Part shown: in pieces, positions 9,396 through 58,445 of the stretch
How the letters are laid out: every line of letters starts with the position of its first letter
Position numbering within the stretch: the stretch's first letter is position 1
DNA from: Capsulimonadaceae bacterium
GTDB lineage: Bacteria; Armatimonadota; Armatimonadia; Armatimonadales; Capsulimonadaceae
Reading direction: 5' to 3'
Assembly (NCBI GenBank): GCA_031292625.1
Contig: JARLGU010000004.1
Span: 1-59,252 of the forward strand
DNA: 59,252 nucleotides
The notes under the pieces: model-generated
Databases searched by the model: none
What the model saw: only the letters and a program-made list of their open reading frames with translations
Told to the model about the DNA's origin: nothing
Position numbers and translations under genes: made by a program

Positions 9396-9400
9396 GCCAC

Positions 9401-10394: not shown

Positions 10395-10401
10395 AAACAA
10401 A

Positions 10402-10845: not shown

Positions 10846-10862
10846 ATCTCTTCCAACCAATC

Positions 10863-10883: not shown

Positions 10884-10963
10884 TTAAACGACAACAGAGC
10901 AGAATTTCTCCGACGCGTGATCGCCGCGCGTCCGGCGATGTGCTTGAGAGGCGGACCGCTCCG

Positions 10964-40194: not shown

Positions 40195-43100
40195 TTAGAA
40201 CCTGAAAACGCCCTCGAGACCAGCGCCGTAATCGCCCTGATCGTCGGCCGATAAGATAAGGCTTAGACGGTTGTTTAGGTTATACCCCAGCAATAGCTGA
40301 TATTGTGGCGGACCCACCGTCGATGCAACGGCTCCAGCCGTGCGAGACGTCCCCAGGCTGGTAAATGTCGCCGAAACGCGCGGAAGCAGCTGCTTGGTCA
40401 GCGTGACCACAAACGGAAGCTCGGGAGTGTAATCGACCGTGACATCCAGGCCGGTTACGTCATAGATGCTTTCGAACACGCTCGCGCTGAGTTGGTTCGT
40501 AAGCACTTGCGCAAAGAGCGAGCGTACCCCCGTATCCACGGCTCCCGTGCCGATGTCGCGCATGCTCTGTCCCCCAAGCGCCGCAATGATCTGGCTCTCG
40601 GCCAAAGGCGGATCCGACGTAAACGTCAATTGAAGCCCCGTACCATCGCTCTTGAGCGTCCCCGAGATCTGCGCCGTTATCGTATAGTGCTCCGAGCCCG
40701 CATAGGTGCCGAGCAAGGAAGGCGTCGCCGACACGCCGGATGAAAGGCCCGGGCTCGACGTCAACGTGCGCTGGGAGATGCTGAGACTGGTGCGGGCCTG
40801 TAGGTTGACCGTAACCGTCAACCCGTTTTGATCCGTCGGCGTCGCCGGGTTATAGGCCACTTCCGCGACGCCGCCTGGGAGGACGCGGAACCGCGCGGTC
40901 GGCAGATCAAAGACGCCTTTGTCGATGAACAACCGGCCGTGCAGGTTCGGCACGGCCAACGTGCCGATAAGCTTGAAGTCGCCCGAAGCGTCGCTTACTT
41001 TAACCTGCGAGGAATCGATATGAGCGCCGCGATCAATGCGCAGCGCCACGTTAAAGCGCGGGTTTACCGGCGGATTCGCGTCAGGCGTCTGCTGAACCGC
41101 CTCCGTGTTCGGAAGCGTGATTACGGCATCGTCCACCTCGATTTTGCCCGACACCAGCGGCGCGGTCGCAATGTCCGTCGCGTGGAGCTCCCCGGTTACC
41201 ACGCCGCTCGCCCCCGCGTTTCCGTAGTCGCGGATCTTACTCTCCGCGAATTTAAACCGGTCAGCCTTTGCGACCAGGTCCAGCTTCACGCCGCCAAGCA
41301 GCGCATCGGCAAGCCCGCTGACAGCCGGTCTCGCGCCTAACAGCATTATGCTCCCACTCGCGGAAAGGCTGCCCCCATTCTTCTGCAGCGATTCAGCCGA
41401 CGCTCGTTCGATGGTCGCGGTGTTGCCATTCAAGTTGATCAGTGCATCGATGTTCTTCAGTCCGCTCTGATAGCCGGGCGGTCTCACCTGACCATGAACG
41501 ATCGCGATCTGACCCGCCAACCGCTTGTCCGCCAGCGTTCCGCTAATATTGACATCGGCTTTGAATAATCCGCTGAAGGCGCTGTTTTGCAGCGCTGGAG
41601 CAAACATCGACAAGACCGACAAGCTTTGCTCGGGGATCGACGCGTGCAAGTCGATCGGAACGTTTGTCGGGAAGAATGGCATTGGGGTTCCGGAGGACGC
41701 GTTCCATGCAAACGGTATTGAACCGTGAATGCTCGCGAGATGTTCGACCGGATCCCCGCCCGGCACCGCCTCATCCTTAACCAACCTCAGTCCATCGATC
41801 GTCAGCTGACTCTTTGCGATGGTCATCCGGCCGCTTTCGACGCGGTCGAATGAGATCGATCCATAAGAAAGATGCGCGAGAGTAACCGACGCCGTTACCT
41901 CCGGATCCTTGGTCTTCCCAGCGGCAATCACCGTTAGGTCGCTAATTGAGCCGCCGACCTTCACGCCGGGCGGCAGGAGCGGCGCCAAGAACGAAAGGTT
42001 GACGTTGGAAGCTTCCAGCTTCGCTTCGATCGCGCCCGCCAGGTCGATCGATCCTGATGCGCTTAGGTAGGCAATCTGGCTGCGCGCTCGAAGCGATCTG
42101 ACGGTCAGTTTCGTCCCGCCGAAATCGAAATCGAAGCTCAGTTCATTGAGAAAGTTGTTGCCGATCGTCAAGTTCTTTATATCGGCAGCGACGGTGATCG
42201 TCGGCTTGTCGAGAGTCCCGGTCACCGCAAGCCGGGGTATGGTCACGTCGCCGTCTAGAGGCGACGGAAGCTGGCGCAGGGCCGTGGAGACTTTCGGGCT
42301 GAGCCTCGACATGATTGCGCTGGTGCTTTCGAGGCGCGTCAGAAACACGGAAAGCTTCTGATCCGCAACGCTGGCATCCAAAGCAATGTCCTTGGTGGAC
42401 ATATCGTACCGATACCGGCTGACCGTGTAAGTCGCTCCCGCCAACGAGAGCACAATCGGTACGCCGGTGCTGGAAAAAACGCCGTGATGGTACTGTCCGG
42501 CGGCTCGAACGGACTCAAGCGTAAAAGCGCCGATCTTCAATCGGTCCGTGACAGTCTGCGCCGAAACGTCCGGATCCGACGCCGTCCCTCGGACGGTCCC
42601 GGCGACCGACAAGATCCCCGATGCCACAACGTCCGGATCGATGAAGTGCATCAAGCGCCCGGCATCCAAACCATTGCCGGTAAAGGTCGCCGAAACCTCC
42701 TTCGACGACGTATTAAACGATCCAGCCGCCTCCAGCCTGGCATCCTCCCATGACGCCCGAAGCTGGCGCACCTGTACGGTCCCGGCGTCGTAGTCGAACG
42801 ATCCGCGAATATCCTGAAAGCGATAAGCGTCAAATGTCGCGTTCGCAACGGAGACGTCGGCACGCAATCGCGGAACTTCCATCGACCCGGTGATCTCAAA
42901 CATCCCATTGAGAGATCCAGTCGCCGTCTTTGCGACGCGGCTCATATTGGGAGACTGTGACTTTGTAACAAGATCTTCGGGCAACAGGCTCATCAGTTCA
43001 GTCAGTTGAATCCGGTTGACGCCAACTCGCAAGTTCAGCTGGGGGTTCTTGCTCAGCACGCCGATAACAACGCCATTGATCGTCGCAAGAGCCGGCTCTA

Positions 43101-45132
43101 CGTGGATACTCAGGTCGTCGAATCCGACGTTCCCATCGTGAACGCGAACGACGCCGTTCGCCAAATCGATAGCCTTCTTTTTGTATCGCACATCGACCAG
43201 CGAGATCCGTCCTTCCAGGTCCGGCGAGCTGAGCGGACCAATCGCCCGCCCCTGGAAATAGCCGGTGCCGCGAACGTCCGGGATTCCAAATGCACCCAGC
43301 AATCCGCCAAACTGAATACGAGCAGCGTTCACGCGGATGTCGTAACGGGCAGGAGCTTTGGCAATCATCGGGATCGCCCCGCGAACCAGCAGCGCCCCGC
43401 CCCTTGCATCCTGCGCCAGGAACTCCGGAATCGTTATGCCCACGCCCTGGTCGTAACTCGCAACGCAGGCAATTCGGGGGATCGAATAGCCGCGAACGGT
43501 AGCCTGTCGAACTCGAAGCGACACTCGAGCGCTAATCGGACCGAGCGGAGCATCCGATTTGCCAAGCCTCTCGATCGAATGCTGCGACGGCGGCGCAGGA
43601 CGACCGCTCGACACGACAAACGACGCGTTGGCCAGCCCGGTCACCGCGCCCAATTGCCGCTGGGCGCTCTTAACGATACTGAGCGAATCAAGCGGCACAT
43701 CGGTAAATACGCCGCGAAACACGCACGCATTTGGCGTTGGACGAGCGTCCACGAGCCCCTCCGCGGAAAACGTGCCGCCGCCAGGAGACGCTTTTGCGGT
43801 CAAGGCGTTCAGAGCGATTAATCCGCGCACATAAGTGGTATCGAGGTGGACGTCGGTGAAAGGACAACCGGCGACCAGAACAGTCGGAGCGGCAACACTT
43901 ATGCGCGCGGTCGGATCTCCCGCCTCGCCCGTAATCAAAGCCGTCGCCGTCGCCGGTTGGGGGATCGCAACCTGGCTGGGCAACGAGGGAACGAACGTGA
44001 GTATCGTATGCAGACGGTCGACTGGAAGCTGAGCGGCATCGACGCGCAGCGCCAGCTCCACCGCCGGAAATCCAAATATCGCGCCGTTGATCGTCAAAGG
44101 CACGCCGTCCGTCCGCGCGGACAGGGCAACCGTCGCCTGGTGCAGCGTGAAGAAAACGTCCCCAGTGACATCCGTCGCGGGATGCGCCAGGAGTAGATGC
44201 GGTTCATCAACGACAACGCCGTTAGCGACGTGGACGAATCCCTGTAAATCCACCGGAGTCGATCGCAGGTTTCCAGCCTTGCTCACGGTCACGTCCGCAT
44301 CAACATACCCCCCGTCGACACGGATCTTCGACTGTATCCACGGAATAAAGTCTGCCGCGAGAAAACGAGCCGAGCCGCGGGTAAGGGCGATGTGTATGCG
44401 GAACCCCCGATCGCTGCGCCTAAGAACTGGACCAAGAGGGTTGCGCAAGATGACGCCGCTAATCGCCCCTGAGGAAAACAGGTCGTTGACACTCTTGCCC
44501 GTAGCCCAGAAGCGATACGCCCGCGTCGATCGGAAATCGACATTTACGGAAACGTTGTCTATCCGTTCGACACGGCCAAGGAGCGACTTCGACGCGCTTT
44601 GATCGTGAAAGTAGACCGTGCTGTGGCGCACGGACAGGACGCCAGCATAGAGCTTCTGTTCACGCAACTCCTGTTTGGGGATCAAATCCGAGAAATTCCA
44701 AGAAGCGAGCGACGTCCGCTCCGCATAGGCGGTTGCGCCCTCGACGTCGATGTCGCCAAGCGCAATCGGTATATTCGAAACGTCCTTGAGGATAAGCGGG
44801 AGGTTGTAATGGACGACAACGCGACGCGCGCGCAGAAAGGCGAGGCCGTCTTTATCGCCTGCAAATGTCGCCCCGTTAGACAGTTCGAGGCCTTCTATAA
44901 CGATCCGGCCTGGGTAATCCAAAAAATCGAGGCGAGCGATGCGGGCTTCACGATGGATCGCCGGGCCAATAATCTGAGCAATGAGAGGAGCGAGGTTGGT
45001 CGAAAGGTATCGATTTAGAGAAATCAGGTTGAGCGCGGCCGCCAAAAGAAATACGGTCACCGGCACGATGACCATGAGATGAACCGCCCACGCGCCTGAG
45101 CGCGGCAATTGGGGTAGCGACGCCGATTTCAA
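40195..45132 (-). CDS. tamB: TamB/AsmA-like translocation and assembly protein (DUF490)
   Basis: This 1,645-residue protein has one N-terminal inner-membrane anchor (VHLMVIVPVTVFLLAAALNLISL). A very long, repetitive beta-rich periplasmic span follows, of the kind that forms a lipid-conducting groove. The conserved C-terminal DUF490 domain occupies about the last 350 residues (LTFTSDPPLAESQIIAALGG, then DVTGLDVTVDYTPELPF and a barrel-like end GVFRF). TamB-type proteins carry phospholipids to the outer membrane or assist barrel insertion. No TamA gene is seen; BamA next door may be its partner, as in phyla lacking TamA. Confidence 0.9.
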   Translation of the reverse strand: MKSASLPQLPRSGAWAVHLMVIVPVTVFLLAAALNLISLNRYLSTNLAPLIAQIIGPAIHREARIARLDFLDYPGRIVIEGLELSNGATFAGDKDGLAFLRARRVVVHYNLPLILKDVSNIPIALGDIDVEGATAYAERTSLASWNFSDLIPKQELREQKLYAGVLSVRHSTVYFHDQSASKSLLGRVERIDNVSVNVDFRSTRAYRFWATGKSVNDLFSSGAISGVILRNPLGPVLRRSDRGFRIHIALTRGSARFLAADFIPWIQSKIRVDGGYVDADVTVSKAGNLRSTPVDLQGFVHVANGVVVDEPHLLLAHPATDVTGDVFFTLHQATVALSARTDGVPLTINGAIFGFPAVELALRVDAAQLPVDRLHTILTFVPSLPSQVAIPQPATATALITGEAGDPTARISVAAPTVLVAGCPFTDVHLDTTYVRGLIALNALTAKASPGGGTFSAEGLVDARPTPNACVFRGVFTDVPLDSLSIVKSAQRQLGAVTGLANASFVVSSGRPAPPSQHSIERLGKSDAPLGPISARVSLRVRQATVRGYSIPRIACVASYDQGVGITIPEFLAQDARGGALLVRGAIPMIAKAPARYDIRVNAARIQFGGLLGAFGIPDVRGTGYFQGRAIGPLSSPDLEGRISLVDVRYKKKAIDLANGVVRVHDGNVGFDDLSIHVEPALATINGVVIGVLSKNPQLNLRVGVNRIQLTELMSLLPEDLVTKSQSPNMSRVAKTATGSLNGMFEITGSMEVPRLRADVSVANATFDAYRFQDIRGSFDYDAGTVQVRQLRASWEDARLEAAGSFNTSSKEVSATFTGNGLDAGRLMHFIDPDVVASGILSVAGTVRGTASDPDVSAQTVTDRLKIGAFTLESVRAAGQYHHGVFSSTGVPIVLSLAGATYTVSRYRYDMSTKDIALDASVADQKLSVFLTRLESTSAIMSRLSPKVSTALRQLPSPLDGDVTIPRLAVTGTLDKPTITVAADIKNLTIGNNFLNELSFDFDFGGTKLTVRSLRARSQIAYLSASGSIDLAGAIEAKLEASNVNLSFLAPLLPPGVKVGGSISDLTVIAAGKTKDPEVTASVTLAHLSYGSISFDRVESGRMTIAKSQLTIDGLRLVKDEAVPGGDPVEHLASIHGSIPFAWNASSGTPMPFFPTNVPIDLHASIPEQSLSVLSMFAPALQNSAFSGLFKADVNISGTLADKRLAGQIAIVHGQVRPPGYQSGLKNIDALINLNGNTATIERASAESLQKNGGSLSASGSIMLLGARPAVSGLADALLGGVKLDLVAKADRFKFAESKIRDYGNAGASGVVTGELHATDIATAPLVSGKIEVDDAVITLPNTEAVQQTPDANPPVNPRFNVALRIDRGAHIDSSQVKVSDASGDFKLIGTLAVPNLHGRLFIDKGVFDLPTARFRVLPGGVAEVAYNPATPTDQNGLTVTVNLQARTSLSISQRTLTSSPGLSSGVSATPSLLGTYAGSEHYTITAQISGTLKSDGTGLQLTFTSDPPLAESQIIAALGGQSMRDIGTGAVDTGVRSLFAQVLTNQLSASVFESIYDVTGLDVTVDYTPELPFVVTLTKQLLPRVSATFTSLGTSRTAGAVASTVGPPQYQLLLGYNLNNRLSLILSADDQGDYGAGLEGVFRF

Positions 45133-45276
45133 ACGGCAACCCCTCGCTCACATCGAGATAGAATCGCGAGAGTTGCGGCGAATGTCCGCGGGTGGCGTCC
45201 CCGGCCAGCTTGTCCAAGCCGATTCCCCGCGTTCGCGACTCGCATCGTGCGCGCGTCCCCGCGTGGGAGTGCCGCG

Positions 45277-46200
45277 CTAGAGCAACCCGACCGCTTCGGA
45301 AAGTTCAATCGCATTGTGCGAAGAGCGGACGAAAGGACCGCTGGCAATGAACACGAAGCCCATTTCGAGTCCGATCGCCTTGTACTCGTCGAAAACATCT
45401 GGATGGATATACTCGACAACTTCAAGATAACCCTTGCCGGGCTTGAGGTATTGACCGATCGTGATCGCATCGACTTTTTTGTCCCGAAGGTCGCGCAACA
45501 AAGCAATGACTTCGTCTCGCGTTTCGCCCAGCCCCACCATGAAGCCGGATTTCGTGTATATGGTCGGATCTTGCAACTTGACATATTCGAGCACGTCCAA
45601 CGACCGCGGATACTTGGCTTGCGGCCGGACCTGCCGGTAGAGACGGGGCACGGTCTCCGTGTTGTGGTTAAATATGTCCGGTCTCGCCTGCACGATCACG
45701 TCGAGCGCATCGCGCTTGCCAAGGAAATCGGGCGTAAGCACTTCGACAATCGAGCCCGGCAGTAGTTCGCGCAAGCACGCAATCGTCTGAGCGAAATGCC
45801 GCGCGCCGCCGTCGGCGAGCTCGTCCCGGTTAACGCTGGTAACGACAGTATGGCGCAAGCCGAGAGTCTTGGCCGCCTCCGCGACACGTCTGGGTTCGTC
45901 GGGATCGAGGGGGAGGCCACGCCCCGTTTTGACCGCGCAAAAGCGGCACGAGCGCGTGCACGTATCGCCCATAATCATGAATGTCGCTGATTTCTTCGTC
46001 CAACATTCCCAGAGATTCGGGCATCGCGCTTCCTCGCAGACTGTCACCAGGCGGCCGGACCGCATCAGGTTTTCGACATCAGCGATAGGCTGGCGCTTCG
46101 GAAGACGGATCGTCAACCATTCCGGCAACCGCCGGACAACGCGCCGTTCGCCTGCCTCCTCGACGGAGGCGGAATTTTCAATTTGCAGCAGATCGGACAT
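45277..46200 (-). CDS. lipA: lipoyl synthase
   Basis: This 307-residue radical SAM enzyme inserts two sulphurs into octanoyl groups on lipoate-dependent enzymes. It shows both [4Fe-4S] sites: the auxiliary cluster Cys55, Cys60 and Cys66 in TVCEEARCPNLWECW, and the radical SAM cluster Cys81, Cys85 and Cys88 in DTCTRSCRFCAVKTG. The start ATG 46200 has GAAGGT 6 bases upstream. The C-terminal R-S-S-x-x-A motif, which ligates the auxiliary cluster, is present as VRSSHNA. No lipB lies nearby. It follows gltA by 32 bases. Confidence 0.97.
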   Translation of the reverse strand: MSDLLQIENSASVEEAGERRVVRRLPEWLTIRLPKRQPIADVENLMRSGRLVTVCEEARCPNLWECWTKKSATFMIMGDTCTRSCRFCAVKTGRGLPLDPDEPRRVAEAAKTLGLRHTVVTSVNRDELADGGARHFAQTIACLRELLPGSIVEVLTPDFLGKRDALDVIVQARPDIFNHNTETVPRLYRQVRPQAKYPRSLDVLEYVKLQDPTIYTKSGFMVGLGETRDEVIALLRDLRDKKVDAITIGQYLKPGKGYLEVVEYIHPDVFDEYKAIGLEMGFVFIASGPFVRSSHNAIELSEAVGLL

Positions 46201-46232
46201 GACTTACCTTCTTTGCGCCTTTCGCGCGCAAC

Positions 46233-47384
46233 TCAGCCGCGATGTACCAGCGGCATCACCTTGCGCGACTCGGGCCCCGTGTAGATGGCGCGCGGTCGAA
46301 TGAGCTTATTGTTGCCAAGTTGCTCCAAGATATGCGCGGTCAACCCGGAAATTCGCGACACCGCGAAGACGGGTGTAAAGAACTCGGTCGGTATGCCAAG
46401 GACATGGTAAACGGATGCCGAGAAGAAATCCACATTTGCCTTCAAAGTAGACTTGCCCTTCGCGGCCAGCGCCTTTTCGGCAGCGCCTTCGACGGCCTCC
46501 GAGATATCGTACCACTTGCGGTTGCCGCTGCTCTCGGCCAGTTGCCGGGACATGTAGCGCAGTGAAACGGCGCGCGGATCGAGCGTCTTGTACACGCGAT
46601 GGCCGATGCCCATCAGCTTCCGGCCCGACGCGAGCGCATCCTCGACAAAGCGGTCGGCTTCACGCGGATCGCCGATCTGCTCGAGCATGTGCATAACTTC
46701 GACGTTTGCGCCGCCGTGCAGCGGTCCCGCAAGAGCCCCAAGCGCCGCGGTTACGCCGGAGTACATGTCGCTCAGAGTTCCAACCGCAACGCGCGCCGCG
46801 AAAGTGGAGGCATTGAGTTCGTGATCGGCGTGCAGCACCAGGGCCACGTCAAGAGCGTGTTCGGCGATGTGGTCCGGTTCGTCGCCCGTCAGCATGTACA
46901 GGAAGTTCCAGGCTGTGCTTTTACCGGAGACAGGTTCGATAATCGGACGATCCATGCTGAGTCGCGCGAGCGCCGCAACGAGCGTCCCCATCTGAGCGGT
47001 CAGTCGAACGGCCTTGCGGCGATTTGCCGGTATGGAATTGTCCCCCGTGTCGGGATCGTAGAACGCGAGCAAAGACACGGCCGTGCGCAAGAGATCCATC
47101 GGAGGAGCGCCTGCAGGAAACTGCTTGATCAGCCTCATTGCCTCTGCGGGAACGGTCCGATTGGCATCGAGCTCATCGCCTAGAGCTTCGAGCTGGCTTC
47201 GATTGGGCAGATCGTCGTTCCACAGCAGAAAGACGATCTCTTCAAAGGTGCTATTGAGTGCAAGATCGTGAATGTCGTATCCACGAAATATGAGCTTACC
47301 CTCTGTACCGTTTACGTCCGTAATCGAGGATTCGCCCGCAATGACATCTTCCAAGCCCTCTTTGAACGTTTTCGGTTCACTCAT
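46233..47384 (-). CDS. gltA: citrate synthase
   Basis: This 383-residue type II-like short citrate synthase condenses acetyl-CoA with oxaloacetate. Catalytic residues are visible: His223 in GPLHGGANVEV, His262 in GIGHRVYKTLDPR and Asp319 in ANVDFFSASVYHVLGIP. LHADHELNAST is a further conserved block. The length fits the Gram-positive/archaeal dimeric type rather than the NADH-regulated hexamer. A 2-methylcitrate synthase cannot be excluded from sequence alone. It is the first gene of the long minus-strand block, and with lipA makes a small central-metabolism pair. Confidence 0.93.
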   Translation of the reverse strand: MSEPKTFKEGLEDVIAGESSITDVNGTEGKLIFRGYDIHDLALNSTFEEIVFLLWNDDLPNRSQLEALGDELDANRTVPAEAMRLIKQFPAGAPPMDLLRTAVSLLAFYDPDTGDNSIPANRRKAVRLTAQMGTLVAALARLSMDRPIIEPVSGKSTAWNFLYMLTGDEPDHIAEHALDVALVLHADHELNASTFAARVAVGTLSDMYSGVTAALGALAGPLHGGANVEVMHMLEQIGDPREADRFVEDALASGRKLMGIGHRVYKTLDPRAVSLRYMSRQLAESSGNRKWYDISEAVEGAAEKALAAKGKSTLKANVDFFSASVYHVLGIPTEFFTPVFAVSRISGLTAHILEQLGNNKLIRPRAIYTGPESRKVMPLVHRG

Positions 47385-47441
47385 CGGTTGCGTTCCTCCG
47401 GGGTAGAATTAACGCGCTCATTCTACCTGCTGCTCGAGAAG

Positions 47442-47497
47442 GCTGTCAAATGATCCGCCTCCGTCCTCCCGTGCTCGATTAAGCGCCAAATGACAGC
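47442..47497. promoter_or_regulatory. inverted repeat in the gltA / cytochrome divergent region
   Basis: GCTGTCA at 47442-47448 is inverted as TGACAGC at 47491-47497, each next to a CAAATG. It lies between divergent genes, so it may bind a regulator or bracket their promoters. No named site is recognised. Confidence 0.35.
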
Positions 47498-47570
47498 TTG
47501 ACGGAGCCAGCCATGAACTCATGTCCCGCGATGTCGTCTGTTCGTTTATCGAACTGGGAAGGGAGTCGCC

Positions 47571-48518
47571 ATGAACCCGTCTATCGCCATTGGCAAAGCG
47601 CGCATACCCGTTACAGGGACTATCGTATTGTTCGCCGTTCTCATCGCCGCGGCGTCCACGCCGGCCGGTCCTCCATTGGCCGTTGCCGCAGATAACCCGG
47701 TCGTGTACAAGACGCTTTTCTCGACCAAATGCTCTGCTTGCCATAACCTCCCCGATCCAGGCGTCATCCAGAACACCCAGGAACGCTGGCGGGCGGTCGT
47801 TGCCAAAATGGCGGGACGCGCCCAGGGCAACATTACAGACGAGGACCAGGCGCATATTGTCTCCTACCTCGGGCTATTTCCGCCGAAACAAACTTCGGCA
47901 AAGCCAGACGGCCTGGGGACGGCGCCGGACGACGTCTGGGACCGCGATCCATTGCATTCGTTCGTCTCTACTCTTGCAACGCCCGACCAACTCGCTCAGT
48001 TCCGCTCACTTGGCGGCAAGCCGTCAAGCACGCCGCTCAGTCCTGCGGCGCTCACGGACGGCATAATTCTTACCGCTCCCGCCGTCAACGCTCTCCTTGT
48101 GCACCGGACAGCGACGCTTAACGGCGGTCTCGACCTCAGGATTAAAGTCCGATTCCCGGCCACCGCAAATCTCGACCGGTGCGCGGGGCTCGTCTTCGGT
48201 TTCGTCGACGTCCTGAACTATGACGCCGTACTCTTCGATGCGTCCAATAAGCGAGCCAGCCTGGTCCGGTGTCAGGCTGGGCAGTCCAGCACGATTGCGA
48301 CCGCTCCGCTCGCGGACATCGACGATACGCAATCCTGGCACACTGTCAGGTTGATGTTCCGCCCGCAATCGCATCGCGCGACCGTTTGGGTGGATTCGAG
48401 CAAGCGCCTTAACGCTGAGCTCGGCGATTATGCCGACGGCGGACAACTCGGACTTTTGGCGACACCCAGGACGACAGCAGGGTTTAAGGACCTCTACGCC
48501 GACATTTACGGGCAGTAA
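47571..48518 (+). CDS. exported cytochrome c fused to a concanavalin-like domain
   Basis: This 315-residue protein has a signal peptide (to about AVAAD). A class I cytochrome c domain (about 45-105) has the haem site CSACH at residues 54-58 and a likely distal Met80 in AKMAGR. A C-terminal beta domain (about 155-315) contains ILTAPAVNALLVHRTA, CAGLVFGFVDVLNYDAVLFD and WHTVRLMFRPQSHRATVWVD, resembling LamG/DUF1080-type folds. The arrangement is known in planctomycete-like proteins that couple electron transfer to sugar or surface binding. The role is unknown. GGGAG precedes the ATG. The CHAT gene follows in the same direction. Confidence 0.75.
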   Translation: MNPSIAIGKARIPVTGTIVLFAVLIAAASTPAGPPLAVAADNPVVYKTLFSTKCSACHNLPDPGVIQNTQERWRAVVAKMAGRAQGNITDEDQAHIVSYLGLFPPKQTSAKPDGLGTAPDDVWDRDPLHSFVSTLATPDQLAQFRSLGGKPSSTPLSPAALTDGIILTAPAVNALLVHRTATLNGGLDLRIKVRFPATANLDRCAGLVFGFVDVLNYDAVLFDASNKRASLVRCQAGQSSTIATAPLADIDDTQSWHTVRLMFRPQSHRATVWVDSSKRLNAELGDYADGGQLGLLATPRTTAGFKDLYADIYGQ

Positions 48519-48653
48519 GAAGCAAACAAACACGGAATTAGGCGCAAACCATCTTCTTGCCCTCTCGAAAACCGCTCGTTGTTCCATCATTTAACTCGTG
48601 AATCGTCACGTATTTCACGCTTGAGTGTGGGCGTACACACAATCTGTGGAAAA

Positions 48654-51600
48654 ATGCAGGCAATGCTGCGAGTTTCGACGTATCCTTGGTCCCGGAGAAC
48701 GCCTACCGCTCTGGCCGCGATCGCGCTTATAACGCCTCACGCGCTTATCGCGGCTCCCGCGCCTGCGTCAAGCGCGCGAGCGTCGGCGCTCGCCGCCGCC
48801 GCGTTCGCCTCGGACCAGGGTCGACGATACGTTTCGCAAGGCAAGCTTAACGAAGCGGTCGGCTGGTACGAAGAGGCTCTGTCCGGCTATCAGCGCGCCG
48901 GCGAAATCGGCAAGCAAGCCGTCGTCCTCACCTGTCTCGCGAATATCCACGAGCGAACGAAGCGCTACGACATGGCGCTCGACGACAATCAGCGCTCCCT
49001 CGCACTCGATAAAGCCTCCAAGGACAACCGCTCGATCGGCGTCGATGAATACAATATCGGCCAGGATCTTGAGCGGCTGAACATAACGAGCGAGGCAGTT
49101 GCCGCGTACCTACAGTCCGCTCAGGCATTCCACGACGCGAAAGATCCGGTATCCGAAATCGCGCACCTGGATCAGGCGGCCGCCTATTGCGAAACAACAA
49201 ACGTTCTGCCGCAAGCGCTTGAAATACGGCAGCACGCGCTTAGCGTCGCGCAAATTTCCGGACGTCAAAACGCGCAACTCGAACAGCACTCGAAGATCGG
49301 CGCTCTTTACGAGGCGATGAAGCTTCCAGATAAAGCCCTCGAGTCGCGCAAGCAGGCGCTCGATATCGCGCGCGCAACCGACAACGTTCCCGCCGTCGCA
49401 ACACAGTTGGCCGCGATCGGACAGCTTTTCGAGAGCAAGGGCGACCACATGCATGCCCTAGAATGCCATCAGCAAGCGCTCGGATTGAACCTGCTCGTAA
49501 AGAACCACGCACCCGAGGCATCGGAGCTCGGAAAAATCGCCGAAACGTACGACCGCTTGGGCGAGACGGAGAAGGCGCTGCTGTACCACCAGAGCGCTTA
49601 CGAAGCCTACAACCAGCAAGGTAATTTCTCCGGCGCGTTGTCCGAAATCAATGCAGTCACCCGATCCCAGCTTGCGCTTGGCCGGTTTGAGCAGGCTTCC
49701 GAGTCCGCCAATGCATCCATCGCCATCGCGCGCAAGACAAATCGCCCGCCAGCGCTTGCCGATCAACTCCTGCAGCTTGGCACCGCGTACGCGCGCCTGG
49801 GCCGGATTGCCCAGGCATCGGACAGCTACTCCGAGGCGCTCGGTCTTGTTTCGCAGCACGGTGAACGCGACCGCCAGAGAGTCCTCCTCGCGCGTCTAGC
49901 TGACCTATCTCTCAAAGCGGGGAACCTGCAAACGGCTCTCGCGCGCCGAAATCAGATCCTTGCGCTGGACATCGAAGCCCGCGACCGTACGGCTCAGGCA
50001 GCCGACTACGCAGCGATCGGGGCCGCGCACGCGTCGACGGGCAAGTGGTCGAAAGCCACCGATGCCTACTCCCTGGCGCTCACCGTCCACCGTCAGCTCG
50101 GGCAAACCCTTTCAGTGCGCGCGGACCTGCACGCTCTGGCGTTGATCTGCTTCCGCGGCCATGCCAACACGCGCGCGATCGATTACCATCGACAAGCCCT
50201 TGCGATCGATCAGCAAACCAGGCGAGTGGTCGAAGCCATCGAAGACTACTCAGGGCTCGCTGACTGCTATGCCGACGTCGGCCAGCTGCCGGCGGCGCTT
50301 GAGGCGCAGCGTCACGTGATTGCGCTTGATCGTCGTCTGCCCACTGCGGCGAACGCCGGCCGCCATTTGCTGGATTTGGCCCTCATTCAACACGATCTCA
50401 GCCTCAAAGCGGAAGCGCTCGCCAGCTTCCAGGACGCCGCGACAAACCTGCCGGGATCGTCGAATGCCCGTCTTCGCAGACTCGCCCTGACCGAATCCGG
50501 CCGGCTTTACGAATCCATGGGGCAATATGCCCAAGCGCTCGACGCTGGCGAACAAGCTTTGGCAATCGCCCGGCAGACCAATCAACGGGCGATCGTTCAG
50601 GATTGCCTTGCCGACGAAAGCCGTTATCTTGTGCGGCTAGACAAGTTGGACAAGGCAAAAGCATCGATTGACGAGCTTCTAACCAGCGCAAAGGCTGGCG
50701 GCAACCGCGCGGCCCTTGCCAGCGCCTACGAAAATCAGGGTCTCCTTGCGGAAGCCTCCCGCAACCTGGATGATGCCTGCGAGTGGAACGCGCGAGCAGT
50801 TCGTCTGCGCCGCCAGATCGGAGACTGGGTCGGCTTCGCCCGCGCAAGCCGTCAACAAATCGCCCTGTTTGCGTCCTGGGATAGGCCGCAGCTTGCTATC
50901 GCATATGGCAAGCACGCGCTTAACCAGCTCCAGTCGATTCTTTGGTCGAGTCGCGCCCGCTCGATCCAAGAATCTTCGCAGATCGAACTGGAAGTAGCAC
51001 AAGGCTACCGGACTCTTGCATCCCTCCTGATCGACCAGCACCGGCTTGCCGAAGCGACCCAGGTGATCGGTATCCTGAAGCGTCAGGAGCTTGCCGGTTT
51101 CGCGGGACAGCATCGTTGGGCAAGCGGTTCGAGCGTTCCGATCGCGTCCCTAACCATGGTGGAGCAATCGACCCTGGCGCGGCTTACCGATGCCGAGGGA
51201 CGCTACTGCGCGCTCGCGGAATCACCGGACACGGCGCAGCTTGCCGGAGAAATCGGTGATACGTTTACGTCGGCGCGCCGCCGTTACCACGCATCGCTCA
51301 TGGTTGCGGGCGCGGATTTACCCGACGGAATCCTCGCCGGCGAGCCAAGCCGCGCAACATATGCGTCGCCGCCCGTTCCGTTAAGCTCCGCCGCAAGTCT
51401 CCCGCCCCCACCCGGCGTCGCGATCGTCCGCATGGTGGTCAGCGCGGACGGTTGCCGCTTCCTGGTTACGACCGACCAGGGAATTCAAGCAGAGACGAGC
51501 TCTATAGGAGCCGGCGAGTTACGGCAGATGGCCGCCCATTGGCGAGATCAATTGACCAACCCGGACGTCGATCCCCGCCCGCTTGGCCAGCAGCTCTACA

Positions 51601-52481
51601 ACGTGCTGTTCGCCCCAATTAAAGCAGACATCGCGGCGGCGAACGTCCACACTATTTTGTGGTCGCTAGACGACGTCTTGCGCTACATCCCAATGGGCGC
51701 GCTCTATGACGGCAACGCCTACCTGGCGCAAAACTATCAGAACGTGCTTCTAACAGGCAGTTCCGCCAACGACCCAGCGGCTCAGGGGAAACGACGCTCA
51801 TGGTACGTCCTCGGCGTCGGCGCAACGAAAGCGCATGAGTCGATCCCAGCACGCATCAGATCGGCGGACGAACTCCGCGGCATCATCGTTTCCGCTCAGG
51901 GACGCGGCAGCCTGCCTGGCACCGTCTGCCTGGACAACCAGTTCACGCAGCAGAGGTTCCGCTCCGAGTTGTCGACAGGCTATCCGGTCGTCCACGTCGC
52001 CAGCGCGCTAGCGGTCGGCAGCGATGAGCGCGCATCGTTTATTGTCCTCGGCGATGGCGATCTGAGCTTCCTGAACGTGCTTGGCAGCAATTCCGCCGTA
52101 CTGAAGGATGTGGATCTTCTGACCGTCTCAAACAGCCGGTTCGACCTGGCGTTCAACGGCGGCGACGGACATGAGGTGGAAGGATTGGGAGCTTACGCAA
52201 GAGCGCTGGGGGCATCGAGCGTGTTGGCGGGCTTGTGGCCGGCTCCGGAGGCAAGCACCCGGCGCTGGATGAGTACGTTCTATCAGAACAAGACAGCGGC
52301 GACTGACACCACCAAGGCATCCGCCGTCCAAGCCGCGCAGCTCGACATGATCGGCTCCGCGCCAGCCCCTGTCGCCGCATCGACAAACCAAGCGGACCCG
52401 CTGTTCACGGCGCCGGACAGCGCCCCATTCTCGCACCCGTTCTACTGGGCGTCTTTCCAGCTAATGGGCGACTGGCGCTAA
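48654..52481 (+). CDS. TPR-CHAT protein with degenerate catalytic site
   Basis: About 1,275 residues. A signal-like N terminus (ALAAIALITPHALIAAPAPA) is followed by about 18-20 TPR units (35-860), for example VGWYEEALSGYQRAGEIGKQA. A C-terminal CHAT region spans about 950-1275 (ILWSLDDVLRYIPMGALYD, GDLSFLNVLGSN, GLGAYARALGASSVLAGLWPAPEAST). Active CHAT proteases have H-x-A-x-H and S-A-C-x-T motifs. Here the first reads HVASA (1114-1118), with Ala where the catalytic His should be, and the second reads TVSNSR, with Ser1161 in place of Cys. Both residues seem lost, so it is probably a binding rather than cutting protein. ATG 48654 begins the signal-like segment. Confidence 0.85.
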   Translation: MQAMLRVSTYPWSRRTPTALAAIALITPHALIAAPAPASSARASALAAAAFASDQGRRYVSQGKLNEAVGWYEEALSGYQRAGEIGKQAVVLTCLANIHERTKRYDMALDDNQRSLALDKASKDNRSIGVDEYNIGQDLERLNITSEAVAAYLQSAQAFHDAKDPVSEIAHLDQAAAYCETTNVLPQALEIRQHALSVAQISGRQNAQLEQHSKIGALYEAMKLPDKALESRKQALDIARATDNVPAVATQLAAIGQLFESKGDHMHALECHQQALGLNLLVKNHAPEASELGKIAETYDRLGETEKALLYHQSAYEAYNQQGNFSGALSEINAVTRSQLALGRFEQASESANASIAIARKTNRPPALADQLLQLGTAYARLGRIAQASDSYSEALGLVSQHGERDRQRVLLARLADLSLKAGNLQTALARRNQILALDIEARDRTAQAADYAAIGAAHASTGKWSKATDAYSLALTVHRQLGQTLSVRADLHALALICFRGHANTRAIDYHRQALAIDQQTRRVVEAIEDYSGLADCYADVGQLPAALEAQRHVIALDRRLPTAANAGRHLLDLALIQHDLSLKAEALASFQDAATNLPGSSNARLRRLALTESGRLYESMGQYAQALDAGEQALAIARQTNQRAIVQDCLADESRYLVRLDKLDKAKASIDELLTSAKAGGNRAALASAYENQGLLAEASRNLDDACEWNARAVRLRRQIGDWVGFARASRQQIALFASWDRPQLAIAYGKHALNQLQSILWSSRARSIQESSQIELEVAQGYRTLASLLIDQHRLAEATQVIGILKRQELAGFAGQHRWASGSSVPIASLTMVEQSTLARLTDAEGRYCALAESPDTAQLAGEIGDTFTSARRRYHASLMVAGADLPDGILAGEPSRATYASPPVPLSSAASLPPPPGVAIVRMVVSADGCRFLVTTDQGIQAETSSIGAGELRQMAAHWRDQLTNPDVDPRPLGQQLYNVLFAPIKADIAAANVHTILWSLDDVLRYIPMGALYDGNAYLAQNYQNVLLTGSSANDPAAQGKRRSWYVLGVGATKAHESIPARIRSADELRGIIVSAQGRGSLPGTVCLDNQFTQQRFRSELSTGYPVVHVASALAVGSDERASFIVLGDGDLSFLNVLGSNSAVLKDVDLLTVSNSRFDLAFNGGDGHEVEGLGAYARALGASSVLAGLWPAPEASTRRWMSTFYQNKTAATDTTKASAVQAAQLDMIGSAPAPVAASTNQADPLFTAPDSAPFSHPFYWASFQLMGDWR

Positions 52482-52536
52482 GCGCGGTCCGTTCTGCCTT
52501 TGACGCCCCAGCCGGGCACTCCGCCGCCTCCGCGTT

Positions 52537-54330
52537 CTACGCACTGCCGATCAACGCCGACACGAACTCGCCGACCGTCTGACCGTCGCGCCAATGGGCA
52601 GCGCCTGTGGGTAACTGTGCCCTAAGAGCCAACGCCGTCGCCGCATCCTGATCGATCGCGTCGTCCGGATGGGCATCATAGGTGTCGAACAGCCCCAGGC
52701 ACCCAGCCTTTTGCAAGGCGGTCCAGTGAGGATGCGTCCTCGGGACATCGCGAAAATAGGTCAGCGTCTGGTTCTGCTTGAGCAGAAGATCCTGTACGCG
52801 AGCAATATCGACGCGCCGGACCGTCGTCCCCTGATCGATCGCCACGTGGGCAGCCACGCCCGCCGCATGCCCAAGCGCCATCCAACACGGCTCCATCCGA
52901 AGCGTGCTAAATCCAAGGTGCGTCGCCGAACACGGCACCGGCGTCAACACGCCATCGATATCGAGCGGCACCATGACGCCATACGGCGCCTGATACTGAC
53001 GAGAAATCATACCGAGGCCGAGAAAGCCGTCGAGATGCACCTTGCCGGGCTCGCGTTTGCGAACCGCGTGCGAGTCCAACGGATAGTGGCTGGCTGTGAC
53101 GCTATCGAGCTTCGAGGGCGGCCTCTTGTCGCGGGATGCCTCCTCGACTCCCTCCATTATGCGATACGCGCGATCGACGTCTTCCGGCGCAATGGCATCG
53201 AGAGCCGTAAAGAGGTATTCGCCAATGATCCGCCGGCCTTCACGGACGTAGATTTGCCGTGGGAAGTGGTCATTGTCGGTATACTCGCCAGCGGCAAGCC
53301 CCCACTCTCTCGCCTCGGCGCGGAACCATTCCGGAAGCTCCGGATCGTTCTGGCAGAACCAGAGCAAACCCAACGTATAGTCGCGCAAACGCTGTGCGAA
53401 CCGGTCGCGCCACTCCCAGTCCGCTGACGGATACGGCCAGTTCTCCTCCGGCAGATCGGTCGACAGAAAAGAGGCGTGGTGATTGTTTGAATCCGTTTTG
53501 CCGTTCGGAAGGGCGACCGGGTTGACGATGCCAATATCTCGCGCTCCCTTTTTGCCCGGCATAAAATGCTCCATGGATCCAGAGCGAACATCGCCGATCA
53601 AGCTCGCATAGTCGACACGATTGTAGTTAGACGGCTTATCGATTGGCACGCGGATGTTAGGATCGGATGTCAGGCAGAGGCGATAATTGTAAGCCTGCAA
53701 CGTATCGTCGCCCTCTTCCGTCGATCCCTCTCCGAGCGGTCCCGCCCCCCACGGCCGATACACTCGACCGGCGAACGGTTCGCCATATTCGGATTTTCCC
53801 TCGCGACGCGTCTCGAAACGGCATCCCGCGGCGGCGGCCAGATCGCCTTCATACGTAGCGTCAATAAAGACCTTCGCCTCGTATGTCTCCAATGCGCCAG
53901 TGGCGCGATCGAGAACGGTCACGCTGCGCAAACTCCGTTTCGCATCCAAGCAGACACGATCAGGACGGGCGTCGAGTTGTCTGCCTCGCAGAACCCGGAT
54001 ATGATCGCCTTCGCCCGCCACCATATTCTCGAAGACCTGTTCGGCGACATGCGGCTCAAAATGATAGCCATCGGAGCAATCTTTCACTTGCTGAGACGCT
54101 TCGCCGTAAAGCGCGATGTAGTACTCCTTGACTCGCGTGACGAATTCCAAGAAGAGACCTGCCGTAGCGCCGCGCGTCCCGATATCCGTCGCGCCCAACC
54201 CGTTGGCGGGCAGGCCGCCGATATGATCGGTTCGTTCGAGCAGAAGAACATGCCGGCCGCACCGCGCCGCGGCGACGGCCGCACAGATGCCGCCGGGCGT
54301 TGCACCAGCGATTACGATATCATATGTCAT
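52537..54330 (-). CDS. FAD-dependent oxidoreductase (FAD_oxidored family)
   Basis: This 597-residue flavoprotein opens MTYDIVIAGATPGGICAAVAAARCG, the dinucleotide-binding G-x-x-x-G-G fold. It is followed by HVLLLERTDHIGGLPANGLGATDIG, typical of the FAD_oxidored group that includes the heterodisulphide-reductase-like and xanthan lyase-associated proteins. VFIDATYEGDLAAAAGC and the late block MEPCWMALGHAAGVAAHVAI are also family marks. Substrate is unknown; many members occur with glycan-degradation genes. ATG 54330 is chosen over a longer frame because AGGAAAG precedes it. It ends 56 bases from the convergent CHAT gene. Confidence 0.85.
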   Translation of the reverse strand: MTYDIVIAGATPGGICAAVAAARCGRHVLLLERTDHIGGLPANGLGATDIGTRGATAGLFLEFVTRVKEYYIALYGEASQQVKDCSDGYHFEPHVAEQVFENMVAGEGDHIRVLRGRQLDARPDRVCLDAKRSLRSVTVLDRATGALETYEAKVFIDATYEGDLAAAAGCRFETRREGKSEYGEPFAGRVYRPWGAGPLGEGSTEEGDDTLQAYNYRLCLTSDPNIRVPIDKPSNYNRVDYASLIGDVRSGSMEHFMPGKKGARDIGIVNPVALPNGKTDSNNHHASFLSTDLPEENWPYPSADWEWRDRFAQRLRDYTLGLLWFCQNDPELPEWFRAEAREWGLAAGEYTDNDHFPRQIYVREGRRIIGEYLFTALDAIAPEDVDRAYRIMEGVEEASRDKRPPSKLDSVTASHYPLDSHAVRKREPGKVHLDGFLGLGMISRQYQAPYGVMVPLDIDGVLTPVPCSATHLGFSTLRMEPCWMALGHAAGVAAHVAIDQGTTVRRVDIARVQDLLLKQNQTLTYFRDVPRTHPHWTALQKAGCLGLFDTYDAHPDDAIDQDAATALALRAQLPTGAAHWRDGQTVGEFVSALIGSA

Positions 54331-54477
54331 GGGATTGTTGCTTTCCTGGCAGGTTGCAAACCGCGGCAGTTGCAACGGGCGACAGCGAAGAACACGGGCG
54401 GCAAGAAAGGCCGCTCGCCCATCGCTGACGGACGAGCGGATTGCTACCTGGCGCCGCTCATGGAACGCCGGTCGTAA

Positions 54478-55320
54478 CTAGTCGATAAATGTAACGGGCT
54501 GTAGGACCGGGGGAATGATTCCTCGTTGCGCGCCCTCAGTCAATAGAAGTTCGATGCCGCGTTTGCCGCGCTCGCCAAGATTGAGGGTCAGTTCGTTAAC
54601 ATACATGCCGACAAACTTGTCGGCGGTTTCGCGGGGCATGTCCCGCGCAAACGTAAGCGCGTATTCAAGCGCCTCGTCGCGATGACTGAGGCTGTACTCG
54701 ATGCTGCGGCGCATCACGGCGGACATCTTTCGCATCAGATCGTCGCCCAGGTCCCGGCGGATCGCATTGACGCCGAGCGGAAGCGGCGTCCCCGTGCGCG
54801 CCTGCCACCAGACGCCCATATCGACGATCAGGTGTAGCCCCTCGCTCGCGTGCGTCAGTTGCCCCTCGTGAATGATCAGCCCTGCGTCCACGTCGCCGGA
54901 CTTTACCTTTCCCATGATATCTTGGAAGTAAGTGTTGACCGGCTCAAAAGGACGGCCGTCCATATATATAAGGAACGCGAGGTAGGCGGTGGTCATCTTG
55001 CCGGGGATCGCGATGCGCTTGCCTTCAAGCGACGCGGGATCGATCGGGGTCGTGGCAACGATCATCGGCCCGTACTGGTCGCCAACGCTTGCGCCGTGAG
55101 CGAGCAGCGCATATTTGTCTTGCACATAAGCGTATGCATGGAGCGAAATCGCGGTGGTGTCGAGCTTACCCTCGCGCGCCCACTCGTTCAGAGTTTGAAT
55201 ATCGCGCAGAACGTGCTCAAATTTGAGTCCTTCGGCGTCGATCTTATCCTTGGCCAATCCGTAAAACATAAACGCGTCATCGCTATCGGGGCTGTGTCCA
55301 AGGGTAAGGGATCTTGCCAT
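54478..55320 (-). CDS. mqnD: 1,4-dihydroxy-6-naphthoate synthase (menaquinone futalosine pathway)
   Basis: This 280-residue enzyme of the alternative (futalosine) menaquinone route converts cyclic dehypoxanthinylfutalosine to 1,4-dihydroxy-6-naphthoate. It opens LTLGHSPDSDDAFMFYGL, the signature of MqnD. It continues with TAISLHAYAYVQDKYALL, RIAIPGKMTTAYLAF and AGLIIHEGQLT, which line the substrate pocket in this periplasmic-binding-protein-like fold. It shows the cell makes menaquinone without the classical men genes. mqnA, mqnB, mqnC and mqnE are not in the window. Confidence 0.93.
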   Translation of the reverse strand: MARSLTLGHSPDSDDAFMFYGLAKDKIDAEGLKFEHVLRDIQTLNEWAREGKLDTTAISLHAYAYVQDKYALLAHGASVGDQYGPMIVATTPIDPASLEGKRIAIPGKMTTAYLAFLIYMDGRPFEPVNTYFQDIMGKVKSGDVDAGLIIHEGQLTHASEGLHLIVDMGVWWQARTGTPLPLGVNAIRRDLGDDLMRKMSAVMRRSIEYSLSHRDEALEYALTFARDMPRETADKFVGMYVNELTLNLGERGKRGIELLLTEGAQRGIIPPVLQPVTFID

Positions 55321-56173
55321 AAGTTTGTTCTCCCGTGCGGGGCTGCCGCAAACGATTTCGATTGTACCAGCTTTGCACGAACTCGATCAATACGCGCATT
55401 CACATCTGGCTTGCAGCAATGACCAGCAATGGCGTTCGTCTCCGATCCTGGTATAGCGCCGACGGGCGCGGCCATGCGCCGCAAACGGACAGTGTCCGCG
55501 CCGACGCCGCCTTGTCCGGCCCCCCCGGCGAACGTGCTCGCAGACGCCGGCTTCCGCCGCGCCGCGTGCCGATCGACACGCGAATCGAAGCACGCCGCGA
55601 CTGGATCCGGGAGGCGATAGAGCGGATTGCTACGGAAATCGGAATGGAGCGGGGGGTTACGGAGATGGGCGGCTGGAATATCGGGATCTAGGCGAGGAGC
55701 GGTGTCGGTGGAGCGTAGGGAGTACTGGATTTGAATACCTCACAAGATTCACCAGTCACTTTGTGAGCATCTCTACATTGTGCTTGTTTTCGCCTCCAGA
55801 ACCTTAGGTGCTCGCTTCCCGTGACCGTTGCGCCGGGCGGCACGGGGTACTTCTGTGGTACAAGTCTCGCGTTTACTGCAAATGGATAGCCGTGGTTCCG
55901 CCCATCGACGTCCACGCGCCCGAGGCGAGTGCTTCCATTTTGAATCTCGCTTATATATTCCCAAATATATTTACAAAGTAAATGTTTTGATGTAACATAT
56001 ACATGTAAATGTAAACATTCTGTGAGGCAAAATCCATGGGGTTCTAAGAAACTTACGAGAAGGCGTTGCGCCGCCCTCACTGGGGCGGTGCCATAGGATC
56101 CTTTAAAGACGCGGGGAACGAGGATGACCTGCGAAGGTCGGCCGGTAAAATCGAGTCGGCGGTCGCGCACGAC
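55321..56173. other. gene-poor stretch at the start of the right-hand accessory patch
   Basis: I find no gene I can defend. A plus frame ending at 55691 and a minus frame at 55688-56170 are open, but neither shows a known motif; the minus frame, with GRVDVDGRNHGYPFAVNARL, is the better candidate for a real short gene. From about 55955 the sequence turns AT-rich and carries the repeats listed next. Composition changes here from the GC-rich core to the patch. Confidence 0.4.
55981..56019. promoter_or_regulatory. AT-rich inverted and direct repeats, possible operator
   Basis: AATGTTT at 55981-55987 is inverted as AAACATT at 56013-56019. Between them ATGTAAC/ATGTAAA recurs three times, with ACATATACATGT in the centre. 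It lies about 150 bases before the hypothetical gene at 56174, upstream of the XRE-type regulator gene, so it may be its binding site. Confidence 0.4.
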
Positions 56174-56617
56174 ATGAACACGAACTCAGGCGACTGGCGT
56201 ACACCGGTAGTCGAGCAGCTATGTGAGCTTATCGATGGGATGATGGATAGGCCGGAACTATACTTTGGCTTATCGACGCGCGAGAGTATTCGTGAGAGCC
56301 TTGACGGTCTCGAAGCCGCCTGCTTGCCGGTAAAGAATGAGGATTGTTTGAAAAGGTTCCTCGACGCCGCTTATGTTCGCCTCGATAAACTTGTCGAGCT
56401 GGGTTCGGCGGCCCTGACTTCGCATGACGTCGCACGAGAGATCGTTGTGGCGTACATGGAGAATACTGCACGCGACGTTTTCCAATGCGCAGTGGCGGTG
56501 AAAGATCAACACAACCGTGGTGGAGAGCCTGCAGGCGAGATGCTCAACAGAGCCCTCTCATACGTGCATTTTAGCGACCTCGCGGAACAGGTGCGCCGGT
56601 TCAGGCAAGATTCGTAA
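56174..56617 (+). CDS. hypothetical protein upstream of the ImmA-PIN pair
   Basis: A 147-residue, mostly helical, acidic protein (MNTNSGDWRTPVVEQLCELI at the start, MMDRPELYFGLSTRESIRESL next). No catalytic or DNA-binding motif is visible, and I do not recognise a family. ATG 56174 is preferred to a start at 56066 because the extra N terminus is unlike a protein. It points the same way as the next two genes, 62 bases ahead, and may be a third component of that locus. Confidence 0.5.
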   Translation: MNTNSGDWRTPVVEQLCELIDGMMDRPELYFGLSTRESIRESLDGLEAACLPVKNEDCLKRFLDAAYVRLDKLVELGSAALTSHDVAREIVVAYMENTARDVFQCAVAVKDQHNRGGEPAGEMLNRALSYVHFSDLAEQVRRFRQDS

Positions 56618-56679
56618 GCCGCCCTCACAGCGAGTATCCGTGCGCGATCTTCTAAATAGATTTATAAAGGAAAGTTATT

Positions 56680-57909
56680 ATGCCAAAAAGCATTTCGCCG
56701 ATAGAACTTGGAAAGCGAATTGCCGCCGCACGCAAAGAGAGGAACGTGTCTCAAGAGGATGCGGCGAAGCACTTGGGCGTGTCCCGGCCAACGTACATTG
56801 CCATCGAAAGGGGAAGTCGCGCCGCGAAGGCCGAGGAGATCATCTCGTTGGCGGCCTATTTTGGCAAGTCGGTCAACGATTTGGTTTCGCCAAGATCAAC
56901 GATCACGGAATTTGCGCCGCAGTTTCGAGTGACGCAAAGCGCGACGGCAGAACCAATCGTCATTGACGAGGCCGTGGGTGCTTTTAAGCAGGCGTGCAAC
57001 GATTATCTCTGGCTAGAGCATGCTCTCAATGCTCCGATGCCCAAGCGGGTTGACATAGACGAATACCCGATTTCAAACGTTGCCCCAGCAGTAATCGCCG
57101 AGGATATTGCCCAGATGGAACGATCGCGGCTTAACCTGGGAATGGGGCCGATTGCTGACCTCGCCGGCACGTTAGAGGCCGAGGCAGGCATTCGGGTCTT
57201 CGCGCTGCCGGTCGAGGAATTTCGCGTCGCTGGAATGTTCGTTTTCAACGATCAGCTTGGGGGATGCATTATGGTCAACGGCAGTCATCCCGTAACCCGT
57301 CAGGCATGGTCTCTGGCGCACGAGTACGCTCACTATTTGACCAATCGCTATCACAATGAGGTGACCGTGCTCATAGAGTATGAGCGAAAACCCAAGGCGG
57401 AGCAGTTCGCCGATCACTTCGCAGCAAGTTTCCTCATGCCTGCTCCTGGCATTCGAAGACGATTCAATTCGATAGTCCAGAGCAGGAAGGACTTTTCGGT
57501 TGCCGATCTTTGCGTGATGGCTGACCAGTACGCAGTCTCGGTTGAAGCGATGGCACGCCGTCTTGAGCGTCTTGGGTGCTTGCCGCAGGGAACGTGGCAA
57601 ACGTTGGAAGATCGATCAGTTAGCGGCAAGAGGGCGCGCAAGGAGATCGGCCTGGATTCGCGCCCGCCGAGGCGGGTAATCTTGCCAAGGCGATATGTAA
57701 GGTTGGCTGTCCAGGCATTTGATGAGGAACTGATCACCGAAACTCAGCTGGCTCGTTTCCTTCGCTGTAGTCGCGTGGAGGCCCGCGAAATCGCGGATGC
57801 TGCATCGGTCACTGAGGAAATCAATGTTAACGCTGGCGGAACGTACCAGTTGTCGTTGACCTTTGGCGACTCAATCGGTCCCACGAGAGATGATAAGGAG
57901 GCGGCGTAA
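56680..57909 (+). CDS. XRE regulator fused to an ImmA/IrrE metallopeptidase
   Basis: This 409-residue protein has an N-terminal helix-turn-helix (about 8-68, including NVSQEDAAKHLGVSRPTYIAIERG). A zinc peptidase domain of the ImmA/IrrE type (COG2856) follows, with HEYAH at 214-218 and the third ligand Glu241 in AEQFADHFAASFLMP. C-terminal helices (about 330-390) follow. Such fusions act as regulators whose protease part cuts a partner, as in phage-like induction and in IrrE of Deinococcus. AAGGAAAG precedes the ATG. The stop overlaps the ATG of the PIN gene by one base (TAATG), so the two are co-translated as a likely toxin-antitoxin-type pair. Confidence 0.88.
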   Translation: MPKSISPIELGKRIAAARKERNVSQEDAAKHLGVSRPTYIAIERGSRAAKAEEIISLAAYFGKSVNDLVSPRSTITEFAPQFRVTQSATAEPIVIDEAVGAFKQACNDYLWLEHALNAPMPKRVDIDEYPISNVAPAVIAEDIAQMERSRLNLGMGPIADLAGTLEAEAGIRVFALPVEEFRVAGMFVFNDQLGGCIMVNGSHPVTRQAWSLAHEYAHYLTNRYHNEVTVLIEYERKPKAEQFADHFAASFLMPAPGIRRRFNSIVQSRKDFSVADLCVMADQYAVSVEAMARRLERLGCLPQGTWQTLEDRSVSGKRARKEIGLDSRPPRRVILPRRYVRLAVQAFDEELITETQLARFLRCSRVEAREIADAASVTEEINVNAGGTYQLSLTFGDSIGPTRDDKEAA

Positions 57910-58445
57910 TGCAATCGCCGCTTATCTGGGATGCGTGCAGCCTCCTTAACCTTGCTGCGACAAACCGAGAGATCGAGATCCTATCCAGCATGGGACGACA
58001 GTCGTACGTGCCCGAAAAGGTGCTGCGCGATGAAGTTCTTTATCTGCGACCTTTTGAGCAACGCGACAAGGACGAACTCGAGCTGATCGACCCGCAGCCA
58101 CTTGTTGTCGCCGGCGTTCTGACACCGCTCGTGCTGTCTTCTGAGGAGTATGAACTCTACGTCGACTTTGCGAGCCAAGTCGATGACGGGGAAGCCCAAT
58201 GCCTGGCAATCGCGGCAAGCCGGAGTTATTGCCTTGCGAGTGACGACGGAGCAGCGTTACGTGTTGCCCGAGAATGGACACCGGCTATTTCCGTAATTAC
58301 GACGCCGGAATGGCTGCAAACATGGCTCAACTCGACTCCAAATGTCGATTGCCGAGTTGTCGTGCAAATGGTAACCAAACGAGCAAAGTTTCGTCCCCGG
58401 CGCACGAGCGCCTTGCTGTCCTGGTGGCAAAGCTGTCTCGAATAG
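57909..58445 (+). CDS. PIN-domain protein, probable toxin partner
   Basis: This 178-residue protein reads LIWDACSLLNLAATNRE at the N terminus, where Asp8 would be the first metal ligand of a PIN nuclease. It continues with VDDGEAQCLAIAASRSYCLASDDGAALRVA, carrying the later acidic residues. PIN toxins cut RNA. Its start overlaps the stop of the XRE-ImmA/IrrE gene, so expression is coupled. The C-terminal 30 residues are basic (KRAKFRPRRTSALL). The pairing of PIN with a metallopeptidase regulator differs from the usual VapB partner. Confidence 0.75.
   Translation: MQSPLIWDACSLLNLAATNREIEILSSMGRQSYVPEKVLRDEVLYLRPFEQRDKDELELIDPQPLVVAGVLTPLVLSSEEYELYVDFASQVDDGEAQCLAIAASRSYCLASDDGAALRVAREWTPAISVITTPEWLQTWLNSTPNVDCRVVVQMVTKRAKFRPRRTSALLSWWQSCLE

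Follow-up and report, generated by a model that had tools for sequence, protein, structure and literature searches.

A TPR-CHAT protein of a Capsulimonadaceae bacterium with both residues of the catalytic dyad replaced

Introduction

Csx29, the TPR-CHAT protein of Craspase (type III-E CRISPR), combines an array of TPRs with a CHAT domain behind it, and works with Cas7-11 as its partner. Its dyad, H585/C627, is equivalent to H2003 and C2029 of separase (PMC9729208), and it has a non-proteolytic regulatory effect on its partner as well (PMC9935389). Loss of catalytic residues is known from the pseudo-orthocaspases, bacterial members of clan CD whose C14 p20 domains carry Y-S, F-S and similar dyads (PMC6426788, PMC7889975). 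Pseudo-forms represent 858 of 9,994 orthocaspases and some of them are fused to TPRs (PMC6426788); they are found chiefly in Alphaproteobacteria and Cyanobacteria. A third described protein, the transmembrane anti-sigma factor DdvA (8rot, 8rw5), ends in a domain (residues about 640-991) that structurally matches the CHAT domain studied here. Our literature search, which was limited and is weak evidence of absence, found no description of dead bacterial CHATs, and CHAT is not mentioned in the text of PMC6426788.

Here we analysed a TPR-CHAT gene of a soil-type bacterium of the Capsulimonadaceae (assembly GCA_031292625.1, genome of 5.77 Mb), located in a stretch of 59,252 nucleotides of contig JARLGU010000004.1, hereafter the window. 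Its product has the same order of parts as Csx29, which is also the best structural match to its modelled CHAT domain; it differs from Csx29 in the missing dyad, in an N terminus that resembles an export signal and in the absence of Cas genes from the neighbours that were scanned. With the pseudo-orthocaspases it shares the replacement of both catalytic residues in a bacterial clan CD protein, and it falls under their definition (His and/or Cys replaced in a caspase fold), although the likeness is in this respect only: they belong to the p20 family PF00656 and carry other substitutions, whereas the window domain is a PF12770 CHAT and the window ORF gave no Pfam match to PF00656 at E 0.001. In contrast to DdvA, the window protein passes directly from a signal-like N terminus to TPRs, and Pfam found no anti-sigma domain in it. 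The exported TPR-CHATs of Armatimonadota and Acidobacteriota belong to the same family as the window protein, but their dyad is intact.

Results

The gene encoding the window protein is open across 1,275 codons with neither stop nor frameshift, while the other frames contain stops (Table 1). Its likely start is the ATG at 48654 (MQAML) or the one at 48663, and its GC3 and codon usage are like those of the neighbouring genes. A signal-like N terminus, claimed by a first-pass annotation of this DNA, could be read directly, and export of the protein is plausible from it; similar N termini were present in all nine kin and paralogue proteins examined. The same annotation had counted about 20 TPRs, which was close, but 14 repeats were scored and a 40-residue spacing gives about 18; Pfam TPR_12 matched at 1.8e-37. 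The C-terminal domain matched PF12770 at 1.1e-37 over positions 2-289 of 289, with 130.5 bits against a curated cut-off of 24, and this score, together with a predicted caspase-like fold, makes it a member of the CHAT family. The interval 51900-52481, originally given for the domain, holds its C-terminal part and not the whole Pfam match.

Table 1. Features of the window and of related loci
Feature	Contig or locus	Coordinates	Strand	Basis
Cytochrome gene upstream (c-type, CSACH; product exported, C terminus extended by about 200 aa)	window	47571..48518	+	
Whole ORF, TPR protein with C-terminal pseudo-CHAT, 1,275 aa	window	48654..52481	+	ORF reading, Pfam
N terminus resembling a signal peptide: SRR, followed by the hydrophobic TALAAIALITPHALIAA and by APAPA	window	48654..48761	+	direct reading; kin similar
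TPR array, 14 repeats scored, residues 53 to 761	window	48810..50936	+	TPR model iterated on the TPR-CHAT family
CHAT domain PF12770	window	51579..52472	+	Pfam, AlphaFold2, structural match to Csx29
HVASA motif; Ala1118 (codon 52005-52007) in the catalytic His column	window	51993..52007	+	alignments
SNSRF motif; Ser1161 (codon 52134-52136) in the catalytic Cys column	window	52128..52142	+	alignments
Intact paralogue in the same genome	L026	8950-11877	minus	
C14 caspase genes of the window genome (G000)	contigs C25, C28, C38, C48, C59; loci L138, L140-L146			
Intact TPR-CHAT with partner C14 caspase (DUF4384-like part)	L018	7631-9922 with 3657-7634 and 481-3660		
Intact TPR-CHAT with partner subtilase	L017	6117-8237 with 8234-11497		
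Intact TPR-CHAT with partner subtilase	L025	4253-6367 with 1080-4256		
Second dead TPR-CHAT (HxASP, STFQT)	L021	8298-10613		
Second dead TPR-CHAT (HxASP, STFQT)	L023	1562-3814		
CHAT with His kept and Cys replaced by Phe (SAFNT)	L052	3-1148		

A profile of 66 CHATs was aligned to the Craspase TPR-CHAT (7x8a chain), and the two motif columns coincided with H585 and C627. The HVASA and TVSNSR strings reported by the first-pass annotation are present in the sequence: the first, structural His of HVASA is retained, the second, catalytic one is Ala1118, and Ser1161 stands in the Cys column, which bears out the claim that both catalytic residues are replaced. Kin of the same family or order have HIASHF and SAC[DN]T where the window protein has HVASA and SNSRF. 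The dyad is intact in its closest kin, as it is in the paralogue encoded by the same genome (contig C33; HIATHF/SACQTG). Because the His-Cys dyad is present in 62 of the 66 aligned CHATs, the Ala/Ser combination is no chance variant. The three other exceptions are L012 and L013 (both Pro/Phe) and L052 (His/Phe), and since the scan that collected the CHATs used a pattern favouring an intact Cys, the true share of dead CHATs may exceed 4/66. A first scan of the genome contigs with the window CHAT as sole query found no relative. The known catalytic centre is thus lost in the window CHAT, which, by its aligned residues, is predicted not to be an active CHAT cysteine peptidase. The CHAT of L052 comes from a Pyrinomonadaceae MAG with 13 CHAT matches.

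AlphaFold2, supplied with the 66-row alignment, gave a model of the CHAT domain with a pLDDT of 86.1 and a pTM of 0.86. Its best structural match was Csx29 (7y9x_B; Z 26.7 over 324 residues, 3.1 angstrom), and other matches included separases (Z about 24), gingipains (18), ciliary central-pair proteins (16.6) and caspases (12), as well as DdvA (Z 20.5 over 313 residues, 5.5 angstrom). In PDB profile searches an 11-row alignment returned chance matches only and the 66-row alignment worked; with the latter, DdvA gave no sequence match. The caspase-like fold is therefore retained, as judged from the predicted structure. Only two Cys occur in the modelled domain, at model residues 73 (in the N-terminal hairpin) and 231 (in the strand preceding the His strand), and none lies in any catalytic loop. 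A substitute His-Cys pair in the active site, which the first-pass annotation had named as the finding that would speak against its reading, was ruled out on this basis.

The rest of the domain had been described as kept. This holds for 66 of the 99 columns that are invariant among 13 intact kin, and for the fold-determining G325, W334, E212 and H253, which are invariant, but not for the active site, where 12 of the 21 invariant columns in four loops are changed, compared to 21 of 78 elsewhere. The associated Fisher p of 0.011 is indicative only, because the loop borders were placed by hand from predicted strands once the changed columns had been seen. Three intact members, L118, L119 and L120, have nearly as many changes and show no bias towards active-site loops. 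These data indicate that the loops around the active site are remodelled in the modelled window domain.

The kin of the window protein are exported TPR-CHATs of Armatimonadota and Acidobacteriota (L017, L018, L019, L020, L025 and L029-L042) that are 34-40% identical to it in the CHAT domain; in those of Armatimonadota that were inspected, TPRs and a signal-like N terminus are present. A loss common to relatives in the phylum, raised as a possibility at the outset, was not found: relatives are intact, and two species of a sister family carry a different dead TPR-CHAT (L021 and L023, the full genes of L012 and L013). In both species a glycoside hydrolase 42-like gene adjoins it. The two Pro/Phe CHATs share about 69% identity (69-70%) and have a dN/dS of about 0.2 (0.23), which is similar to that of their TPR part and somewhat above that of intact pairs (0.13-0.18). 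The Pro/Phe CHAT is, by this measure, under purifying selection in the two species; dead CHATs therefore recur and can be maintained. Since the window copy is known from one genome only, the best evidence for maintenance is indirect and comes from the Pro/Phe pair. Parsimony on the CHAT tree gave three losses of the dyad, and as the AU test did not reject a single origin for the losses in the window and in L012/L013 (p 0.147), we call these two independent on parsimony only. The end branch leading to the window copy is long; those of the intact paralogue and the intact L118-L120 are about as long, and branch length consequently cannot separate relaxation from a habit of the lineage. The idea that the long branch proves relaxation was rejected on the same grounds.

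The TPR-CHAT gene starts 135 bases after the end of the cytochrome gene. In four family genomes examined the cytochrome gene is divergent from citrate synthase and is followed by genes other than a TPR-CHAT, so that the place of the pseudo-CHAT gene is lineage-specific and non-syntenic. A Pfam scan from 40198 to 58445 identified lipA, gltA, the cytochrome, TamB, an FAD oxidoreductase, mqnA and an HTH-M78 protein, and no Cas gene, Cas7-11 included, among these neighbours. When PADLOC was used to search for defence systems, the window protein gave a generic TPR match only. On three contigs the intact TPR-CHAT genes of kin overlap a protease gene upstream by 4 bases (Table 1), which suggests, from gene arrangement, two-protease operons acting in the cell envelope. 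The window gene has no coupled protease partner. Its genome contains eight C14 caspase-domain genes, compared to none or one in six other family members, and several of the encoded caspases combine a signal-like N terminus with an intact His-Cys motif.

Discussion

The intact dyad of kin, the retained fold and the absence of an alternative Cys support descent from a protease followed by loss of the dyad, as the first-pass annotation had proposed. We consider it probable that the window protein is a dead member of an exported TPR-CHAT protease family, whose TPRs and pseudo-active face bind without cleaving. An ancestral exported TPR-CHAT protease would have had its catalytic His and Cys replaced by Ala and Ser and its active-site loops remodelled while the fold was kept. 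The resulting protein would still be exported, and its TPR array and pseudo-active face would hold protein partners or peptides uncut, so that it would serve in the cell envelope as a module for binding or regulation. Such a role may be likened to that of the TPR-CHAT that regulates Cas7-11 without proteolysis (PMC9935389), or to the pseudo-orthocaspases; a phenotype for a dead caspase homologue is known from SyOC, deletion of which leads to higher oxidative-stress tolerance (PMC7889975). The domain was thus most likely once a protease, and any function that it has now would be in binding. The earlier description, a protease-derived scaffold outside the cytoplasm, fits this picture, with the scaffold part conjectural. 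Caspase-clan pseudoproteases of the C14 family are already known in bacteria, and a dead CHAT is a variant of that theme. That one order contains two lineages with dead exported TPR-CHATs, and that one of these proteins is kept across two species, indicates that the CHAT fold is useful beyond cleavage. It also follows that Pfam CHAT matches, here with 130 bits, should not be labelled proteases unless the dyad has been inspected.

The main alternative is that the window copy is redundant and relaxed, lost its dyad for want of selection, is heading for decay and has no present function. Its long end branch, its restriction to one genome, the intact CHAT elsewhere in that genome and its non-syntenic site beside gltA and the cytochrome, where kin carry other genes, are what such a copy would show. 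However, the 1,275 codons are uninterrupted and normal in usage and GC3, the fold-determining residues are retained, changes are clustered rather than random, and the branch of the intact paralogue is nearly equally long. We regard decay as unlikely, though it deserves more weight than the other alternatives.

A more specific form of the favoured binding role would have the pseudo-CHAT regulate the secreted caspases of its genome, by binding them or by competing for their substrates. The excess of C14 genes, several of whose products have an intact dyad and a signal-like N terminus, would agree with this, as would the translational coupling of intact TPR-CHATs to a C14 caspase in genome G005 and to a subtilase in two others. 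Yet the window gene is unlinked to any C14 gene, and the excess is a correlation in one genome; we hold this form to be doubtful and the caspases to be candidate partners only. A dead homologue controlling an active caspase is known in cFLIP, which acts on caspase-8, and if the regulator were real, it would represent a comparable protease-pseudoprotease system in the envelope of bacteria.

Less likely still is a hydrolase with an altered mechanism, with Ser1161 as nucleophile and, for example, His1061 or His1173 (residues 200 and 312 of the model) as base. Ser in place of Cys does keep a hydroxyl as nucleophile, His1173 comes after the Ser loop at a position where close kin have K or R, and in some kin the residue corresponding to His1061 is likewise a His. 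Against this, there is Ala in the His loop, and the entire LSACxT motif is altered; no such clan CD serine peptidase is known. A sequencing or assembly error, including a compensated frameshift, can be dismissed, since two separate multi-codon motifs differ in frame within an open frame, the other frames contain stops, and codon usage and GC3 equal those of the neighbours.

Returning to the intact proteins, the paralogue of the window genome carries three near-identical copies of VLVRGQRPPVR between its TPRs and its CHAT domain. In the G005 caspase, RGGRMLVRG occurs twice after the catalytic Cys. Both repeats are possible Arg-directed processing sites.
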